DNA of 64,000 nucleotides from Polaribacter marinus (GTDB taxonomy: Bacteria; Bacteroidota; Bacteroidia; Flavobacteriales; Flavobacteriaceae). The notes under the pieces are model-generated. The model made no database searches. It was not told the DNA's origin and saw only the letters and a program-made list of their open reading frames with translations. The position numbers were made by a program, and so were the translations under genes. The stretch covers positions 62,001-126,000 of the forward strand of contig NZ_JAKQYM010000005.1 in assembly GCF_022662535.1 (NCBI RefSeq), read 5' to 3'. Shown one piece after another: positions 2,975 through 29,510 of this stretch; position 1 is the first letter of the stretch, and each line of letters starts with the position of its first letter.

Positions 2975-5218
2975 CTATTTAATTTTAAATCGTAATCCTG
3001 CATACATAGCACGTCCAAAAATTGGAGAATATACAATTGTACTATCAAAATTGGCTCCAAAAGGATCATCACTTGCTAAAATAGGATTTTTTTGTTGAAC
3101 ATTTGTTAAATTTTCTACACCTGCATACATCTCAAACTTCTTTGAAAATATTTTTGTTACTTGAGAATTCAATAATTGATAAGGTTTAGAATATGCTGAT
3201 AATTGATATTGAATAGGGTTTGATGTTGTATTTGGCAAACGTTGTTTTCCTATGCTATTAAACGTAACATCAAATTTCCAATGAGAACCACTTTCTTGCA
3301 CAGGGGTTTCGTAAGAAAGGTTTGCAAAAAATCTATTTTTTGGTTGAATTGGTTTTTGCAAATTCCCCGACTTATAATCTGTAGAAATATCGAAATACTT
3401 ATAAGCCGTTCTAAAATTAAAAAAAGGTGCAATATTATAATTTACTTCTACCTGAAAACTATTAGCAATACTTTTTCCATCTAAATTATAGAATGAAATT
3501 TCTTGTGGATTTTCCCAATCTACAACCACTTGATTCTTAAAATCTGTTCTATAAAAATCAAATGTAATATCTCCTTTTTTCTCAAATAAATTAAATTTCT
3601 GCAAATAAGAAACTCCGTAATTCCAAGCAATTTCAGGATTTAAACCATAAATATTTCCACCAACATTATCAATTTTAATCTGTCTAGAACTTGCAAATAA
3701 TTGTTGGTTTTCAGCAAAAATATTTGCACTTCTTTTTCCTCTACCAAAAGATGCTCTAAAAACACCTTTATCCCAAGGAACATAGCGCAAATGTAATCGT
3801 GGTGTGATAAAAGTTCCTAATAAATTATGTGTATCTACACGTAAACCAGCTGTTAAACTAAAATCCTCTAAATTATCAAAAGCATATTCAAAGAAAGCTC
3901 CAACAGAATTTTCATTTCTACTAAAATCATTGGCATTTACCAACTCATTATATTTATCGTACGTATAACTTACGCCTGTTTTAAATTTGTTTCTTGTATC
4001 TCCAATTATTGAATTAAAAATTAGATTAGAATATACACTTTGGTGTTCAATGTCATACGTTTTCAATCCAAAATAAGAATCTTGTTGATGATTGCTATAT
4101 GCTAACTGAAATCCAATACTTTGAAAAGGCATTTCCGGAAAAACGTATCCTAATTTAGCAGATGTTTCAAAACGTTTTGTGTCAATTTCACTTCCCCATG
4201 CATTGGTGGTTCCTTTATCTAAAGTAGGGTTGAAATTAATTTCTCCTGTTTGTTTTTCATCATTTAAAAAGCGAACATTTATAAAACTAACCCAACCTTT
4301 TTCTGCATCAACAAATTGCCAACGATTCATTACATTGATTTGATTTGCTAACGGATTATCAAGAAAATTATCGTTGTTTTTATCAAATTTCTCTCCTCTA
4401 TAATTCCCATGAATGTATAAACCTGCATGCCATTTATCTGAAATTTTTTGATTAAAATGGGTGTTTACCTCTAGCCTTCCGTTTAATGAACTATAAGCAT
4501 TTAGAAAAAATTTATTATCGGAAAAAGGTTTCACTAATTCTGCATTTATTTGCCCAGAAATACTTTCATAACCATTTACAACAGAGCCTGCACCTTTGGT
4601 AATTTGAATACTTTCTACCCAAGTACCTGGAGTGAATGTTAATCCAAAAGCTTGAGAAGCGCCTCTAACAGAAGGAATATTTTCTTGAGAAATTAACAAA
4701 TAAGGACTTGTTAGACCTAGCATTTGTATTTGTTTTGTTCCTGTTAAAGCATCTGAAAAACTAACATCTATTGATGGATTTGTTTCAAAACTTTCGGCTA
4801 AATTACAACAAGCCGCCTTTAATAACTCATCGGAATTTACCGTAAAAACATTTGCTGTTGCAAAAAAAGATTTCTGTATTGCATTTTGCTTACTTCTAAT
4901 TGTTACTTCCTCTAATTCACTTTCTGGAGTTATAAAATGATGAATAGGTTTTAAACTGGTAATTGTTAAAGTATCTGTTTTATATCCTAAATAATTAACA
5001 ATTAACTTCTTATATTCTGGTTTATAATCTATGGTAAACCAACCTTTAGCGTTTGTAATTGCGCTAACATTTGTATTGAGCCAATGTACTGTAACATCAG
5101 CAACACCTAAATTATCTTTTGGATTATTTCTATCCATAATCATTCCTTTTAAAGTAGTTTGAGAAAAGATTATGATTGGGATAAATAGTAAAATACTACT
5201 TATAATATATTTTTTCAT
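2975..5218 (-). CDS. TonB-dependent outer-membrane receptor, probably metal-linked
   Basis: The 747-residue protein has a signal peptide (about 1-19), an N-terminal carboxypeptidase-regulatory-like beta domain (about 22-90), a TonB plug (about 105-225) and a C-terminal 22-strand-type barrel ending in GLRFKIK. A Cys-Cys pair (137-138, in KAACCNLAES) lies in the plug, which is unusual for TonB receptors and fits soft-metal handling. The plug also carries the typical ITKGAGSVVNG stretch. The downstream HMA protein and metal-binding lipoprotein support import or sensing of copper or a similar ion. The substrate is inferred from neighbours only. Confidence 0.88.
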   Translation of the reverse strand: MKKYIISSILLFIPIIIFSQTTLKGMIMDRNNPKDNLGVADVTVHWLNTNVSAITNAKGWFTIDYKPEYKKLIVNYLGYKTDTLTITSLKPIHHFITPESELEEVTIRSKQNAIQKSFFATANVFTVNSDELLKAACCNLAESFETNPSIDVSFSDALTGTKQIQMLGLTSPYLLISQENIPSVRGASQAFGLTFTPGTWVESIQITKGAGSVVNGYESISGQINAELVKPFSDNKFFLNAYSSLNGRLEVNTHFNQKISDKWHAGLYIHGNYRGEKFDKNNDNFLDNPLANQINVMNRWQFVDAEKGWVSFINVRFLNDEKQTGEINFNPTLDKGTTNAWGSEIDTKRFETSAKLGYVFPEMPFQSIGFQLAYSNHQQDSYFGLKTYDIEHQSVYSNLIFNSIIGDTRNKFKTGVSYTYDKYNELVNANDFSRNENSVGAFFEYAFDNLEDFSLTAGLRVDTHNLLGTFITPRLHLRYVPWDKGVFRASFGRGKRSANIFAENQQLFASSRQIKIDNVGGNIYGLNPEIAWNYGVSYLQKFNLFEKKGDITFDFYRTDFKNQVVVDWENPQEISFYNLDGKSIANSFQVEVNYNIAPFFNFRTAYKYFDISTDYKSGNLQKPIQPKNRFFANLSYETPVQESGSHWKFDVTFNSIGKQRLPNTTSNPIQYQLSAYSKPYQLLNSQVTKIFSKKFEMYAGVENLTNVQQKNPILASDDPFGANFDSTIVYSPIFGRAMYAGLRFKIK

Positions 5219-5292
5219 GATATGATTTATTTAATAATTAACATCTTCTTCATTATTAAAAATGAAGTCTAAACTGAATAATTATTAAATAA

Positions 5293-5697
5293 TCAAATTA
5301 AAAAAGTTTGGTATAAAACCTGATAATCTAACCGAGTATCTGGTGGAGAAAAGTCTTTATAAAAATTATTTACGGTTGTTGATGCTACAAATAAGTCTTT
5401 GTAAGAAAAAACAAACGCGACTAAGAACTGCTCTTTTTCGAAAGTAATCTTCTCTATTTTATTAGACTGAAGTTTATCTTGACCTTCTATTTTATGAACC
5501 TCATCTTTACAGCAATTGGTCTTTTTCACTACTTCCTTTGCATCCATTTTCATGCCGCAATCATCTAAATCTCCTACAAAAGATACATCCATTAAAAAAT
5601 CTCCACAATAATGCTTTTCTACCGTAAAAGAAAAGGTAGAGAAAAGCACTAAAAAGGCTAATGTTATTGATGCTATTTTTGAGAAAAATTGTTTCAT
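5293..5697 (-). CDS. HYC_CC_PP family secreted protein
   Basis: This 134-residue protein has a signal peptide (about 1-24). It shows the three hallmarks that name this Bacteroidota family: HYC (29-31), a Cys-Cys pair (62-63) and a Pro-Pro near the C-terminus (118-119, in DFSPPDTRLDY). A further Cys at 47 is followed by GMKMD, so four cysteines with Met and His nearby suggest a metal or disulfide site. No function is established that I know of. It sits 74 bases upstream of the TonB receptor on the same strand and is likely part of the same metal-linked group. A TAAATTTG -7 element lies at 5706-5713 on the minus strand. Confidence 0.82.
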   Translation of the reverse strand: MKQFFSKIASITLAFLVLFSTFSFTVEKHYCGDFLMDVSFVGDLDDCGMKMDAKEVVKKTNCCKDEVHKIEGQDKLQSNKIEKITFEKEQFLVAFVFSYKDLFVASTTVNNFYKDFSPPDTRLDYQVLYQTFLI

Positions 5698-5741
5698 TTC
5701 TACCGCAAATTTACAATAAGAAATTTAAAAAATATGTTAAA

Positions 5742-6173
5742 TTATCTATTGCTTAACTTTTGATAATAAAAAGCGGGTAACAAAAGCAATAAAAACAAAG
5801 GATGAATTATAAATCTTCTTATATAAAAAACTAATAAATAGCCATTTTGTAATTGATCTCTTAATAAAAGCATGAATGCAATTATTAAAATCATAAATGC
5901 CAGCATTAAAAAAAAACCTGAAAATTTTAAATAATCTACCCTTTCAAACAAAACCCAAATAATCCCTAAAGAAATTAAAGAATTAATTACATATCTAAAG
6001 AGCATATCTATCATTAAATGCCAAGTGTTGATATGAGGAATCTTGGTATATAAATAATCGTTTTTAAAATATTCTATCAAAGGATCATAAAATAATTCAG
6101 CAGAATATGCTCTTACTAAAAACAGCAATAGCACAAGAAACAGAAGCAAAATTATTTTAATGTATTTGTTCAT
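5742..6173 (-). CDS. Exosortase F system-associated membrane protein
   Basis: The 143-residue membrane protein has about four hydrophobic segments (near 5-22, 60-78, 84-106 and 116-136). It resembles the small protein always paired with flavobacterial exosortase XrtF. The match is to the general pattern (an N-terminal signal-anchor, a short periplasmic stretch with FYDPLIEYF, then three helices) and to its position directly after xrtF, with which it overlaps by four bases. Its biochemical role is unknown; it may help the exosortase assemble or handle substrate. Confidence comes mostly from context. Confidence 0.75.
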   Translation of the reverse strand: MNKYIKIILLLFLVLLLFLVRAYSAELFYDPLIEYFKNDYLYTKIPHINTWHLMIDMLFRYVINSLISLGIIWVLFERVDYLKFSGFFLMLAFMILIIAFMLLLRDQLQNGYLLVFYIRRFIIHPLFLLLLLPAFYYQKLSNR

Positions 6174-6706
6174 TTTTTATAGTTAGAAAATTTATTAACC
6201 CAAATAACCCACAATAAAAATACAGCTCCATAAATAATTGCAGGAAACACCAAATTATGGAGCAATTCCTGTTGATCAGGATATTTATAAAGCATTATAG
6301 TTAAAAAAGCAATTCTTAAAACATTGATAATATAAATAAAAAGGCTTCCAAAAAAAGAAAACAAGATGGTCGCTTTTATAGAACCCGCAAAGGCAACAAT
6401 AAATGAGATAAATAAAATAATAATACTTATAGAATTACAGCCCTCTATAACTCTAGCTGTATATTGGTTTTCAATTAACAACTTTACAGATAGTTCTTTA
6501 TCGTGCTGTATAGAATCTGCATAGTATCCTATCATTTCTAAAAAATCTACAGTATGTTCTGCTACTTTTGTAGTTATAGAAGCCGTTTGAAATCCGTTTT
6601 CTTTTTCTTGAGAGTTTTGTAAGTAAACTGCATAAATTGCGAACAAAATAAAATAGGTGGTAAAAAACTTGATCAGAAAAACGACTATATTTTTATGTTT
6701 TTTCAC
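6170..6706 (-). CDS. xrtF: Exosortase family protein XrtF
   Basis: This 178-residue integral membrane protease/transpeptidase is predicted to cut C-terminal sorting signals of exported proteins. The catalytic triad of exosortases is visible: Cys90 in IEGCNS, Arg131 in NVLRIA and His150 in LLHNLVFP. The length and placement beside the XrtF-associated protein fit the flavobacterial subgroup. No protein in the window carries a recognisable PEP-CTERM-like target tail, so substrates lie elsewhere. The gene diverges from the GAF gene at 6758 with a 51-base shared upstream region. Confidence 0.9.
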   Translation of the reverse strand: MKKHKNIVVFLIKFFTTYFILFAIYAVYLQNSQEKENGFQTASITTKVAEHTVDFLEMIGYYADSIQHDKELSVKLLIENQYTARVIEGCNSISIIILFISFIVAFAGSIKATILFSFFGSLFIYIINVLRIAFLTIMLYKYPDQQELLHNLVFPAIIYGAVFLLWVIWVNKFSNYKK

Positions 6707-6757
6707 AATAGAATTTAATTTAGTTTTGCAAACTATTTATACAACGAATATACAAAA

Positions 6758-7213
6758 ATGAATATACAAACTTTACAAAAAGAAATAGATGCAATTATTG
6801 CAAATAAAACATCATCTAAAGAAATAAAACTACAAGCTATTTGTGATCTATTAGAGAAAAAAGTTTCTTATTATGATTGGGTTGGGTTTTATTTTAAAAA
6901 TGGAAATAAAAATGAACTAAAGCTTGCTCAATACACAGGGGAAGAAACAGAGCATACAATCATTCCTTTTGGTAAAGGAATTTGCGGACAAGTAGCTGTT
7001 AGTAATGAAAATTTTGTGGTACAAGACGTTTCTGCACAAGACAATTATATTTCTTGCGGATGGAAAGTAAAGTCTGAAATCGTAGTTCCTATTTTTGTAA
7101 ATGGAGAAAATATTGGTCAAATAGATATTGATTCTCATACTGCAAATACATTTTCATCAAAAGACGAGAAGCTTTTAGAGTGTATTTGTCAAGAAATATC
7201 AAAGATTCTTTAA
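6758..7213 (+). CDS. GAF-domain protein, free methionine-R-sulfoxide reductase-like
   Basis: A single 151-residue GAF domain resembles fRMsr (YebR/MsrC), which reduces free methionine-R-sulfoxide in the cytoplasm. The conserved GKGICGQ and NYISCG cysteines correspond to two of the three redox cysteines of fRMsr. The third, ten residues before the GICG cysteine, is His here (EHTIIPFGKGICG), so the enzyme is either a two-cysteine variant or a signalling GAF protein. SEIVVPIF and GQIDIDS complete the family pattern. A TAGTTTTG -7 element lies at 6721-6728. Confidence 0.8.
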   Translation: MNIQTLQKEIDAIIANKTSSKEIKLQAICDLLEKKVSYYDWVGFYFKNGNKNELKLAQYTGEETEHTIIPFGKGICGQVAVSNENFVVQDVSAQDNYISCGWKVKSEIVVPIFVNGENIGQIDIDSHTANTFSSKDEKLLECICQEISKIL

Positions 7214-7218
7214 TTTTA

Positions 7219-7249
7219 TTGACTTATATCTATCTTTTCATTAAATTTG
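7219..7249 (+). promoter_or_regulatory. Promoter of the small ORF at 7290
   Basis: TTG (7219-7221), 20 bases, then TAAATTTG (7242-7249): a full match to the Bacteroidota housekeeping promoter. Transcription would start near 7256, about 34 bases before the small ORF. Confidence 0.7.
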
Positions 7250-7289
7250 ATGAATATAATATAATTTTGAATCATCAAATTTTAGAGTA

Positions 7290-7418
7290 ATGAGAAACCA
7301 AGAATCAACAGCTACATTTTCTTCAAGCAACTTAGAATCTAATCGTTCAACAAAAAAAGAATCTATTTTAGATCAATTTATTGTTTGGTTTAGGGATTTC
7401 TTGGACAATGCTGAGTAG
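7290..7418 (+). CDS. Small ORF, 42 residues, unknown
   Basis: ATG at 7290 to TAG at 7416-7418 encodes a 42-residue peptide. The first half is Ser/Thr/Asn-rich and polar (TFSSSNLESNRSTKKES). The second half, ILDQFIVWFRDFLDNAE, would form an amphipathic helix with aromatic residues on one face and acidic residues at the end. A complete promoter lies 40 bases upstream and the next promoter, for purH, begins only after the stop codon, so this looks like its own transcription unit. I do not recognise a family. A leader-type or membrane-surface small protein is possible. Confidence 0.5.
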   Translation: MRNQESTATFSSSNLESNRSTKKESILDQFIVWFRDFLDNAE

Positions 7419-26579: not shown

Positions 26580-27437
26580 ATGGCTTGGTTTAAACGTACA
26601 GATAAAGGAATACAAACCGCTACAGAAGACAAAAAAGACACTCCAAAAGGTCTTTGGTATAAAACTCCTAGCGGAAAAGTTATTGATACTGAAGAATTAA
26701 AAAAGAACTTATATGTAAGTCCAGAAGACGGCTATCATGTAAGAATTGGAAGTAAAGAATATTTTGAATTGTTTTTTGACGACAATAAATTTGAAGAATT
26801 AAACGAAAAGTTAACTTCTAAAGATCCTTTAAAATTTGAAGACACAAAAAAATACCCAGACAGATTAAAAGCTGCTCAGGAAAAAACAAAATTAAAAGAT
26901 GCTGTAAGAACAGCTGTTGGAAAATCTTTAGGAAAAGATTTAGTAATTGCTGCCATGGACTTTGCTTTTATTGGTGGTTCTATGGGATCTGTTGTTGGAG
27001 AAAAAATTGCAAGAGCAATTAATTATTCGATAGAAAATAAAATTCCATTCCTAATGATTTCTAAATCAGGTGGCGCAAGAATGATGGAAGCATCACTTTC
27101 TTTAATGCAGCTAGTAAAGACATCTGCAAAATTAGCACAATTAGCTGAAGCAAAAATTCCTTATATTTCTTTATGTACAGACCCAACAACCGGAGGTACA
27201 ACTGCTTCTTATGCAATGTTAGGTGATATTAATATTGCAGAACCTAATGCTTTAATTGCATTTGCTGGACCAAGAGTTGTAAAAGATACTACTGGAAAAG
27301 ACTTACCAGAAGGATTTCAAAAATCAGAATTTGTTTTAGAACATGGTTTTTTAGATGCCATTTACGAACGTAAAGATTTAAAAAAGCAAGTAAATTTATA
27401 TATCGATTTAATTCAAAATATACCTGTAAGAAAATAA
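26580..27437 (+). CDS. accD: Acetyl-CoA carboxylase carboxyltransferase subunit beta
   Basis: The 285-residue subunit transfers the carboxyl group from biotin to acetyl-CoA in the first step of fatty-acid synthesis. The crotonase-fold core is typical ([20 protein letters not shown] and [18 protein letters not shown]). The N-terminal zinc ribbon is degenerate: the CPSC and CPKC positions read TPSG (29-32) and SPED (47-50), so all four zinc ligands are gone while the flanking sequence WYKTPSG...GYHVRIG is retained. A TACATTTG -7 element is at 26506-26513. A terminator follows, then the accessory insert. Confidence 0.96.
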
Positions 27438-27444
27438 ATAAAAA

Positions 27445-27468
27445 AGCCAGCAAATGCTGGCTTTTTTA
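27445..27468. terminator. Bidirectional terminator of accD and the fulvocin-like operon
   Basis: AGCCAGCA (27445-27452) pairs with TGCTGGCT (27455-27462), with an A-run before and a T-run after, so it can end accD and the convergent minus-strand operon. Confidence 0.85.
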
Positions 27469-27477
27469 TTTATTAAA

Positions 27478-28299
27478 CTATTCATTTAAAAGTTTTTCAA
27501 TTTCATTTTCCATCTCATATAAAATTACATTCTTTTCATTTAAATTTAAATAACCATTAAATCTAACTTTTCCATTTTTTAATATTACCATATGTGGATA
27601 TCTATTAAATTCTAGTTGTTTAGGAATAGTATCTGAATCTGAATATAAAATTGGAAATTCGTATTTATATTTTTCAATCATTTTTTTCGCATAACCAAAA
27701 GTATCCCTCTTTACAGGTATATTTACAGCATACAAAAATACATTAGAATTGTTTTTATATTTTAAATATAATTTTTCAAAGTCTGGAAATTTTTGAAAAC
27801 ATGCTCCACAATTAGTTGTCCAATAATCTAATACAATCACTTTATTTTTTATGGTGTCAATTCTAAATTTATCATTTGAGTTTGAAAATAACATTTCTGG
27901 AGAATCCTCTATTTTACGAGCATTAAAATTTTCCAAAAGAAACCAAGAATTAACAAATCCATAAATTCCAATTAAAACTAATGTAATTGCATAAAGTATT
28001 TTCAAAAATATAGATTTACTTTTTAAGTAATAACCTAATAAAAAAGTAAGAGGAGTGAAAATAATATAGATAATTACACTAGTTATTTTTGAGTCTTCTA
28101 AAAACAACTGAATAAACCAAATTAATAACAGTGGCATAAAAGAAGCTATGGTGTTTTTGTAAGACATAAACATACTACTAGCTATAAAAGCAGATAACAT
28201 GAATACTGGAAAAATAATTTTTTGTGACTTCAAAAAGAATACACACATCAAGTATATCAAAACAACTAAACCTCCTCTAATTAATATCTTTTTTATCAT
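27478..28299 (-). CDS. Membrane-anchored thioredoxin-fold protein (TlpA-like)
   Basis: The 273-residue protein has an N-terminal membrane domain with about five helices (roughly 8-24, 29-45, 51-67, 73-92, 99-118). A thioredoxin-like domain (about 135-270) carries the redox site NCGAC (Cys164 and Cys167) and the cis-Pro at YPH (Pro235). The membrane part has only one cysteine (Cys19), so it is not a VKOR- or DsbB-like electron carrier itself. It starts six bases after the fulvocin-like gene and is clearly its operon partner, which suggests a role in forming or isomerising disulfides of that peptide. The partnership is inferred from position. Confidence 0.82.
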   Translation of the reverse strand: MIKKILIRGGLVVLIYLMCVFFLKSQKIIFPVFMLSAFIASSMFMSYKNTIASFMPLLLIWFIQLFLEDSKITSVIIYIIFTPLTFLLGYYLKSKSIFLKILYAITLVLIGIYGFVNSWFLLENFNARKIEDSPEMLFSNSNDKFRIDTIKNKVIVLDYWTTNCGACFQKFPDFEKLYLKYKNNSNVFLYAVNIPVKRDTFGYAKKMIEKYKYEFPILYSDSDTIPKQLEFNRYPHMVILKNGKVRFNGYLNLNEKNVILYEMENEIEKLLNE

Positions 28300-28305
28300 T
28301 AATAT

Positions 28306-28980
28306 CTAGTTCTGCGTTAAATCACCAGTACAATAACCAGTACAATTAGAAGTACCCCATACTCCACAATCTCCATTATTAGTTTCACATTTATCAGGTT
28401 TACTACAATCATTATTATATCCTGTACATCCCCAAAAAGAAGGTGTACAATTACAGTTATCTTGCTCTCCTCCTCTAGCTTCAAGTTTATCTTCTTTCGA
28501 TACAAAATCATTTTCTACTAAATTAACATCTTTAATAGTAAAAAATGTATTGTGCACAAATTCTTTACTCCAATTAAATTTTTTGGCACCAAGAGTTACT
28601 TTCTTATCTAACTCTTCTGTAAACTCTTTAGAAATAGGTGACTTATAATCTATTTCTTTAAATGTTTCTGTAAACAATTTTAAAAAAACCTTTTCTTCTT
28701 TAGACAAATTCATTTTTAAAATATAATCAACTTTCTCTTGCCATATTTCCTTTTTCTTATTTGCGGGCATTATCCTTAATATAGCCTTTTGTTTTTTCTC
28801 AGAAAATAACTTAATATCATCTCTACTGTAATTTAAAATCTCTTTTTTATTGGTTTTTACCCAAGCATTTATTTTTGAATCATAAGAAAATTCATGATCA
28901 ACACTTTCACTACAACTAGTAAAAAATAGAGATAAAATAACCGTACAAATTAATCTACTAAAAAAAATTACTTTTTTCAT
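28306..28980 (-). CDS. Fulvocin C-related cysteine-rich precursor lipoprotein
   Basis: The 224-residue protein has a signal ending FFTSC (Cys23, probable lipidation), then a helical Lys/Glu-rich region (about 35-165) with no cysteine. After a Gly-Gly site (170-171, in EARGGEQ) comes a 53-residue tail holding eight cysteines (176, 178, 185, 192, 198, 205, 213, 217). Spacing and composition resemble the Myxococcus bacteriocin fulvocin C, a peptide of about 45 residues with four disulfides. It forms an operon with the membrane thioredoxin downstream. No dedicated transporter or immunity gene is adjacent, so toxin activity is unproven; a signalling or structural peptide is also possible. Confidence 0.78.
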   Translation of the reverse strand: MKKVIFFSRLICTVILSLFFTSCSESVDHEFSYDSKINAWVKTNKKEILNYSRDDIKLFSEKKQKAILRIMPANKKKEIWQEKVDYILKMNLSKEEKVFLKLFTETFKEIDYKSPISKEFTEELDKKVTLGAKKFNWSKEFVHNTFFTIKDVNLVENDFVSKEDKLEARGGEQDNCNCTPSFWGCTGYNNDCSKPDKCETNNGDCGVWGTSNCTGYCTGDLTQN

Positions 28981-29017
28981 AATAATTAAAATTAATAATA
29001 TTTATAGATTTGAAAAT

Positions 29018-29048
29018 AAAGAATAAGTGTTCATAGCATTTATAACAA
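29018..29048 (-). promoter_or_regulatory. Candidate promoter of the fulvocin-like operon
   Basis: On the minus strand TTG (29048-29046), 20 bases, then TATTCTTT (29025-29018), a weak match to TAnnTTTG. It lies about 40 bases before the start codon, and the ATA repeat ends 10 bases upstream of the TTG. Confidence 0.4.
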
Positions 29049-29057
29049 TTTTTCATG

Positions 29058-29084
29058 ATAATAATAATAATAATAATAATAATA
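29058..29084. repeat. ATA triplet microsatellite, nine copies
   Basis: Nine uninterrupted ATA units lie upstream of the fulvocin-like gene, reading TAT on its coding strand. The tract sits immediately behind the candidate -33 element, at roughly -44 to -70, where changes in copy number could alter promoter strength. It is non-coding. It is the longest pure triplet tract I noticed in the window. Confidence 0.9.
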
Positions 29085-29240: not shown

Positions 29241-29510
29241 ATGTATTTAACTAAAGAAGTAAAAGAAAGTATCTTCGAAAAACACGGTAAAGGAAAAAAC
29301 GATACTGGTTCTTCAGAAGGGCAAATCGCGTTATTTACGCACAGAATTAACCATTTAACAGAACACTTAAAAAACAATCGTAAAGATTTTAATACAGAGC
29401 GTTCTTTAGTAATGATGGTTGGTAAACGTAGAAGTTTATTAGATTATCTAAAGAAATCAGATATTACAAGATATCGTGCGATAATTAAAGAATTAGGAAT
29501 TAGAAAGTAA
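29241..29510 (+). CDS. rpsO: 30S ribosomal protein S15
   Basis: The 89-residue uS15 protein binds 16S rRNA in the platform. It has the typical KHGKGKNDTGSSEGQIALFT start and the RRSLLDYLKKSDITRYRAIIKELGIRK end. The adjacent pnp gene is a classical neighbour. A TATATTTG -7 element lies at 29178-29185, about 56 bases before the ATG. A terminator-like hairpin separates it from pnp, so pnp may be read by partial readthrough or from its own start. Confidence 0.98.
   Translation: MYLTKEVKESIFEKHGKGKNDTGSSEGQIALFTHRINHLTEHLKNNRKDFNTERSLVMMVGKRRSLLDYLKKSDITRYRAIIKELGIRK

Follow-up and report, generated by a model that had tools for sequence, protein, structure and literature searches.

Fulvocin C of Myxococcus fulvus was reportedly isolated as a bacteriocin, and is said to have been sequenced by Tsai and Hirsch in 1981 as a peptide with a mature form of 45 amino acids. 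We take the isolated peptide to be essentially an eight-cysteine domain alone. NCBIfam family NF033852 ('bacteriocin fulvocin C-related protein') is named by similarity, and its listing gives no function, partner or repeat. In the accessible text of later papers fulvocin C is cited as a myxobacterial peptide (PMC8708641) and the family name serves as a keyword (PMC12333140). Our literature search found no paper on genes of NF033852; it is a named family whose anatomy and regulatory feature are not described in the literature found.

Two systems from other bacteria offer partial parallels. According to the available text of PMC10100652, the thioredoxin-domain gene blpT is required for the activity of gallocin A, and its deletion impairs killing. 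BlpT is a thioredoxin-domain surface protein in a bacteriocin locus, as may be the case for the partner protein described below; gallocin A differs in being a two-peptide streptococcal bacteriocin exported by BlpAB, and the two loci are likened by description, not by sequence. Fab1 of Bacteroides fragilis is an antibacterial protein with a prodomain that is cleaved off, and the downstream gene Rfab1 also occurs alone, as orphan immunity (available text of PMC8406203). The persistence of our partner gene resembles that of Rfab1; however, the words 'disulfide' and 'thioredoxin' do not occur in the main text of PMC8406203 as available, and the C11 protease family was not found in the 18 genomes surveyed here.

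Organisation of the locus

The window analysed is a 64,000-nucleotide stretch of the Polaribacter marinus genome. The initial annotation described in it a lipoprotein with a cysteine-free part, a Gly-Gly at residues 170-171 and an eight-cysteine tail, followed six bases later by a five-helix membrane protein with a CGAC thioredoxin domain. On re-reading the sequence, both ORFs, the six bases between the lipoprotein stop and the partner ORF, the Gly-Gly, the cysteine positions and an (ATA)9 tract were all found as described, and a structural model and hydropathy agreed with the five helices. The features are listed in Table 1. Upstream of the operon lies a divergent gene (29241-29510) read as ribosomal protein S15, and downstream a convergent gene (26580-27437) read as the acetyl-CoA carboxylase beta subunit; the inverted repeat between the latter and the operon is probably a shared terminator. 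PADLOC gave no anti-phage defence match.

Table 1. Features of the two-gene locus (window positions)
Feature	Position	Strand	Basis or remark
Fulvocin C-related lipoprotein precursor, 224 aa	28306-28980	-	ORF; NCBIfam NF033852
Putative signal peptide, residues 1-22, ahead of lipobox Cys23	28915-28980	-	sequence reading
Predicted Cys-free helical domain, residues 35-146	28543-28878	-	AlphaFold2
Eight-Cys fulvocin-type domain, residues 176-217	28330-28455	-	alignments
Membrane thioredoxin-fold partner, 273 aa	27478-28299	-	Redoxin, 3e-10; ResA-type structures
Membrane part of the partner, five predicted helices, residues 1-127	27919-28299	-	model and hydropathy
CGAC motif of the partner, residues 164-167	27799-27810	-	both Cys invariant in 10/10 partners
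(ATA)9, 27 bp, candidate contingency repeat	29058-29084	+	78-104 bp upstream of the lipoprotein ATG
Inverted repeat bordered by A and T runs	27440-27468	unstranded	direct reading

The lipoprotein precursor and its relation to fulvocin C

Signal peptide and lipobox (LFFTS followed by Cys23), as read from the sequence, mark the first protein as a probable bacterial lipoprotein. The lipobox cysteine was present in nine of the ten rows of alignment A1, the tenth lacking its start, and in 5/5 of another set. Cysteines occur at residues 12, 23, 176, 178, 185, 192, 198, 205, 213 and 217, that is, with none between 23 and 176 and eight in the tail. AlphaFold2, run with five sequences, predicted the helical domain as a block with pLDDT of 68-88 and left the cysteine tail below 50. 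Foldseek found no fold match for the helical domain in the PDB at E≤0.001. Sequence relatives of the lipoprotein in the PDB were also considered, and were rejected as not credible (best E 0.075).

The lipoprotein matched NF033852 with an E-value of 2.7e-25 and 90 bits against a cut-off of 35. The match spans residues 64-217, helical part included, and model positions 1-149 of 150, and all ten rows of alignment A1 matched the same model. All eight tail cysteines are invariant in a six-row alignment, seven are invariant and one nearly so in ten rows, and four further copies have eight, which bears out the expectation that homologues keep the cysteine region. The proposed relation to fulvocin C itself was likewise upheld: a 45-residue fulvocin C sequence scored 25.4 bits against a profile of the cysteine domain built from 18 copies including that of the window, and the best of 2000 shuffles with the cysteines fixed reached 19.7 and the best of 2000 full shuffles 10.4 bits. 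Taking this fulvocin sequence as given, and with the window in the profile, the tail appears to resemble fulvocin C beyond cysteine spacing; the two share eight cysteines, a CxC start and a GCG near the end. Fulvocin C is known as a 45-aa mature peptide, whereas the lipoprotein is known here from its gene. Mature fulvocin C presumably begins two residues before the first cysteine of the eight-cysteine domain, if the sequence used is right, and would therefore correspond to the tail alone.

The thioredoxin-fold partner

The second protein carries a thioredoxin domain at about residues 132-273 (Redoxin, 3e-10). Compared with ResA/DsbE-type structures, its modelled residues 132-270 gave a best Z of 15.5, with an rmsd of 2.4 over 131 residues. 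Cys164, Cys167, Phe171, Pro195 and Pro235 are among the residues invariant in ten partners. With a predicted thioredoxin fold, a CxxC and an invariant later proline, as in the ResA/TlpA/DsbE oxidoreductases, the partner appears to be TlpA/ResA-like. Those enzymes have a single membrane anchor; the partner instead has five predicted helices, in a low-confidence model (mean pLDDT 63) and in nine overlapping hydropathy maxima that reduce by eye to five. Its loops on the side of the N-terminus sum to a net charge of +7 and those on the opposite side to -1, which fits an outward-facing thioredoxin domain. When the membrane part was compared with 15 Pfam families (MauE not among them), only stray matches were obtained.

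Distribution and pairing of the two genes

The two genes were expected to be a conserved pair, and they are. The family sweep covered 299 genomes, with the lipoprotein counted above the cut-off of the NCBIfam model and the partner at a profile E≤1e-25, the two 299-genome draws, each of which includes the source genome of the window, being assumed identical. Eleven genomes had the lipoprotein and ten the partner; nine had both, two the lipoprotein only and one the partner only (Fisher 1.2e-14, genomes treated as independent). Among 166 genomes of the genus, eight had the lipoprotein, nine the partner and seven both, with one lipoprotein only and two partner only (Fisher 4.7e-10, again treating genomes as independent). 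For the genus count, 15 genomes had matched the lipoprotein at E≤0.001, of which seven weak ones were dropped (G735, G742, G745, G746, G766, G842 and G033). G238, G679 and G693 were also dropped, and the proteins inspected among the dropped rows have no Cys-rich tail. G111 and G281 were left out as being under the cut-off and having other cysteine patterns, and G477 was retained as a broken lipoprotein copy.

A partner lies nearby on the same strand in 16 of 22 lipoprotein loci. The remaining six (Lacinutrix, G288, G936, G020, G477 and G628) have no adjacent partner of the window kind, and a search of five of these six genomes found no full-length partner elsewhere; partial thioredoxin-level matches or none were found elsewhere in G020, G288, G936 and G628. 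In G628 the opposite strand carries two TlpA-like genes, which are of a different kind, and G276 has a distant partner without lipoprotein. In eight loci (L101, L102 and L107-L112) a DUF1573-type gene sits next to the lipoprotein or to the pair. Pfam supports seven of eight such genes; the eighth is that of G477.

Several loci depart from the simple two-gene arrangement. In G020 (L111), which has no partner there, the DUF1573-type gene comes after the lipoprotein. Lacinutrix mariniflava (L044) has two identical genes for a 221-aa fulvocin-related lipoprotein (3992-4657 and 6639-7304), about 2.6 kb apart, and no partner near either. G174 (L043) carries two tandem partner genes (4570-5409 and 5583-6401) behind one lipoprotein.

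Relatives on Streptomyces plasmids join comparable parts in one frame. From the N-terminus these are a CxxC domain (CALC, CGTC), a segment that by eye looks Tat-like or membrane-spanning, a helical domain and an eight-cysteine tail. Matches were obtained in 15 plasmid records, and in ten of these, some of them near-identical, at least 97% of the Streptomyces fusion is covered. The front domain is probably thioredoxin-like, as 10 of 11 PDB rows were thioredoxins, at weak E-values of 0.11-1.3, and Pfam Thioredoxin matched one of two at E 0.15. Since this domain precedes the export signal, its topology need not equal that of the partner. The annotated start of the fulvocin-related protein of NZ_CP108083.1 (L134, 5863-6399) looks too late, the open frame running on upstream through the CxxC domain and the export signal. 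L135 has tandem fusions (3145-4188 and 4494-5483) with near-identical front parts; their eight-cysteine tails differ, as though one had been exchanged for another.

Simple repeats at the lipoprotein gene

The (ATA)9 tract is the sole perfect repeat in the window (at least 15 bp and four copies, unit 2-9 bp). A (TTA)8 pattern, which can miss tracts of 24-25 bp and does miss one of 24 bp in G757, found four tracts in the whole source genome, the other three being inside ORFs. At the place of the window tract, G757 has 24 bp, G015 and G829 have 17 bp each, and G749 and G826 have interrupted tracts.

Perfect tandem repeats (unit 2-9 bp, at least four copies and 20 bp) were then scored from 300 bp upstream to the lipoprotein stop, and were found in six of 23 regions (22 loci, Lacinutrix counted twice). 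The start used for L078 lies one base away from its ATG (at 260), which leaves the repeat count unchanged. Triplet tracts account for three of the six, the window having (TAT)9, G757 (TAT)8 and G020 (GTT)9. The others are tetranucleotide tracts, directly after the ATG in G116, (AACA)17.5, and in a MAG, (AACA)5, and mid-gene in G019, (AAAT)6.2. In the assemblies, the lipoprotein frame at both AACA tracts differs from that of the ATG, and there are stops inside the AAAT tract. The same stretches contributed 227.9 kb of flanking sequence, in which no repeat scored; a background of 708 kb, drawn from four genomes, had three, each with a hexa- or heptanucleotide unit. About 0.09 repeats were expected, and at least five, leaving out the window because its tract had drawn attention, gives a Poisson probability of 5e-8; relatedness lowers the number of independent events to about four (TTA, GTT, AACA and AAAT, in our grouping).

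A long repeat at a place where it may alter expression, above background, points to a putative contingency locus, and the earlier suggestion of repeat slippage is strengthened by the recurrence of different repeats at the lipoprotein gene of other species. A triplet cannot shift the frame, so the window tract would act via spacing at or near the promoter, a mode of action considered for the GAA triplets of vlhA in Mycoplasma gallisepticum (available text of PMC6258824). The initial annotation placed the tract just behind a candidate promoter; the tract indeed lies upstream of the lipoprotein, but no TAnnTTTG-type element was found at one common place in the five upstream regions scanned.

Proposed function of the locus

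We tentatively favour the reading that the first gene of the locus encodes the lipid-anchored, phase-variable precursor of an antagonistic peptide rich in disulfides, and the second gene its redox partner. It is supported by the NF033852 match, the fulvocin C score, the co-occurrence, the Streptomyces CxxC fusions, the repeats, the out-of-frame states and the precedents described above. The lipoprotein would be exported by Sec and lipidated, its helical domain bearing a domain of the fulvocin C type that probably contains four disulfides. The outward thioredoxin domain of the partner may act on the tail cysteines, aiding their oxidation, and the mature product would probably be the Cys-rich domain, displayed on the surface or cut from it near the start of the domain, as in fulvocin C, and might then kill. 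Slippage would switch production, through the upstream triplet here and in-gene tetranucleotides elsewhere. Among proteases that might release the peptide, none of the C11 family of the Fab1-activating kind was found in 18 genomes (4 of 14 control genomes were positive). Against this reading stand the six of 22 loci without adjacent partner, triplet tracts that are common in the genus and the missing promoter element; tract lengths (27, 24, 17 and 17 bp) are a comparison between species only, with one genome per species. The partner may serve in maturation, as BlpT does for gallocin A, in protection, or in both.

If the favoured reading is right, the locus gives the fulvocin family an anatomy, namely a lipoprotein precursor, a redox partner and putative switching repeats, and a CxxC partner is linked to the family in two phyla. 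Some of the marine bacteria that carry it are in culture (P. porphyrae). Two questions are raised: is the weapon phase-varied while the shield is kept, and can a thioredoxin fold be a shield?

It is somewhat unlikely that the lipoprotein is instead a phase-variable surface protein other than a toxin, such as an adhesin or a phage decoy or receptor, with a partner that only folds its disulfides. Against this stand the similarity of its tail to a peptide reportedly isolated as a bacteriocin (fulvocin C) and the retention of the partner after loss of the lipoprotein. The lipid anchor and the candidate switching repeats agree with it, as do five loci without evident immunity gene and the triplet at the putative lipoprotein promoter, which recalls vlhA of Mycoplasma gallisepticum (available text of PMC6258824).

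One-sided decay of the pair

Of 18 partner loci, nine have both genes intact; in seven only the lipoprotein is broken, in one from a MAG (L042) both genes are, and that of G749 is doubtful. The seven (G116, G829, G019, G200, G324, G859 and G826) have an intact partner beside a lipoprotein that is broken, out of frame, truncated or deleted, and no broken partner beside an intact lipoprotein was found among the 18 (sign test for 7:0 about 0.016, by our own arithmetic and post hoc). The lipoprotein of G324 has one stop, and that of G829 is interrupted by a frameshift and stops. The G200 copy lacks most of the helical part, and its signal peptide and cysteine tail are in different frames. G829 and G200 are one-contig genomes. 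In G859 an intact partner at another site is preceded by about 33 residues of the lipoprotein tail, and the upstream region of G826, which contains a degenerate repeat, leads directly into an intact partner; no lipoprotein match was obtained elsewhere in either genome (completeness of G826, 86%). In G749 (L099), the signal-peptide frame of the lipoprotein has no ATG, GTG or TTG start before ATGAGCTGC, and may be either a dead copy or one with a rare ATT-type start. Five loci (G020, G288, G936, G628 and Lacinutrix) have an intact lipoprotein without such a partner or a remnant of it.

Persistence of the partner after loss of the lipoprotein is what an immunity gene would show, and the initial statement that no immunity gene is adjacent may therefore be wrong. 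We consider it unlikely, all the same, that the partner is an immunity protein, instead of or besides a maturation enzyme, with a thioredoxin domain that reduces or captures incoming peptide. The seven loci without any reverse breakage, the missing usual start in G749 and the relocated partner of G859 with its lipoprotein remnant are on the side of immunity. So are the dN/dS values of partner pairs with G859 or G826, at 0.14-0.26 and one of 0.38 (other partner pairs 0.18-0.40; dS about 1 or more); pairwise dN/dS, however, averages over the time before loss, with dS near saturation, and the count of broken loci is post hoc. Also against immunity are the five loci where an intact lipoprotein stands without a neighbouring partner of this kind; the four of those genomes that were searched gave no full-length one elsewhere. 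The fuller version, in which the partner is a redox immunity protein against a phase-variable, lipid-anchored fulvocin-type toxin, reduces or traps its disulfides at the cell envelope and is retained or acquired as orphan immunity by relatives with the toxin lost or off, we judge quite unlikely.

Neutral slippage in AT-rich DNA beside a decaying gene pair, the repeats having no regulatory role, is another improbable explanation. It could account for the several broken lipoprotein copies, and similar tracts do occur elsewhere: 53 of 166 genomes of the genus hold (TTA)8, in Asn-rich coding runs and before other genes, some of them for lipoproteins; G757 has four other triplet tracts outside ORFs, and (AACA)5 was found once elsewhere in G829 and in G028. 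That no promoter was identified fits as well. Neutral slippage does not readily explain why a single gene family should have four different repeat units, in three kinds of position, and none in its flanks, or the dN/dS of 0.26-0.38 between lipoprotein pairs (dS about 1 or more).

A classical double-glycine peptide, cut by a C39 peptidase at residues 170-171 and exported by an ABC transporter, is very unlikely, although this Gly-Gly directly precedes the cysteine domain, since a lipobox is present, Gly-Gly stands before the first CxC in only five of 19 readable rows (of 23; the four blank ones are L042, L078, L104 and L021) and not in the P. porphyrae orthologue, and no transporter or C39 gene was recognised on reading the ORFs of 22-35 kb. 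The Gly-Gly is thus not conserved as in C39 peptides, and the processing originally proposed at this site gives way to Sec/SPII export, which the lipobox fits, whereas it does not fit a C39 leader.

Other repeats in the source genome

Long repeats were also seen on other contigs of the source genome. On contig C11, runs of 14 and 21 triplet copies fall within ORFs whose products look secreted (L176, L177). Contig C3 starts with (TTACTGA)11 at the contig end (L069, 1-77), and by our own comparison this repeat differs by one base from the TAACTGA repeats that the available text of PMC4679880 gives for marine Beggiatoaceae.
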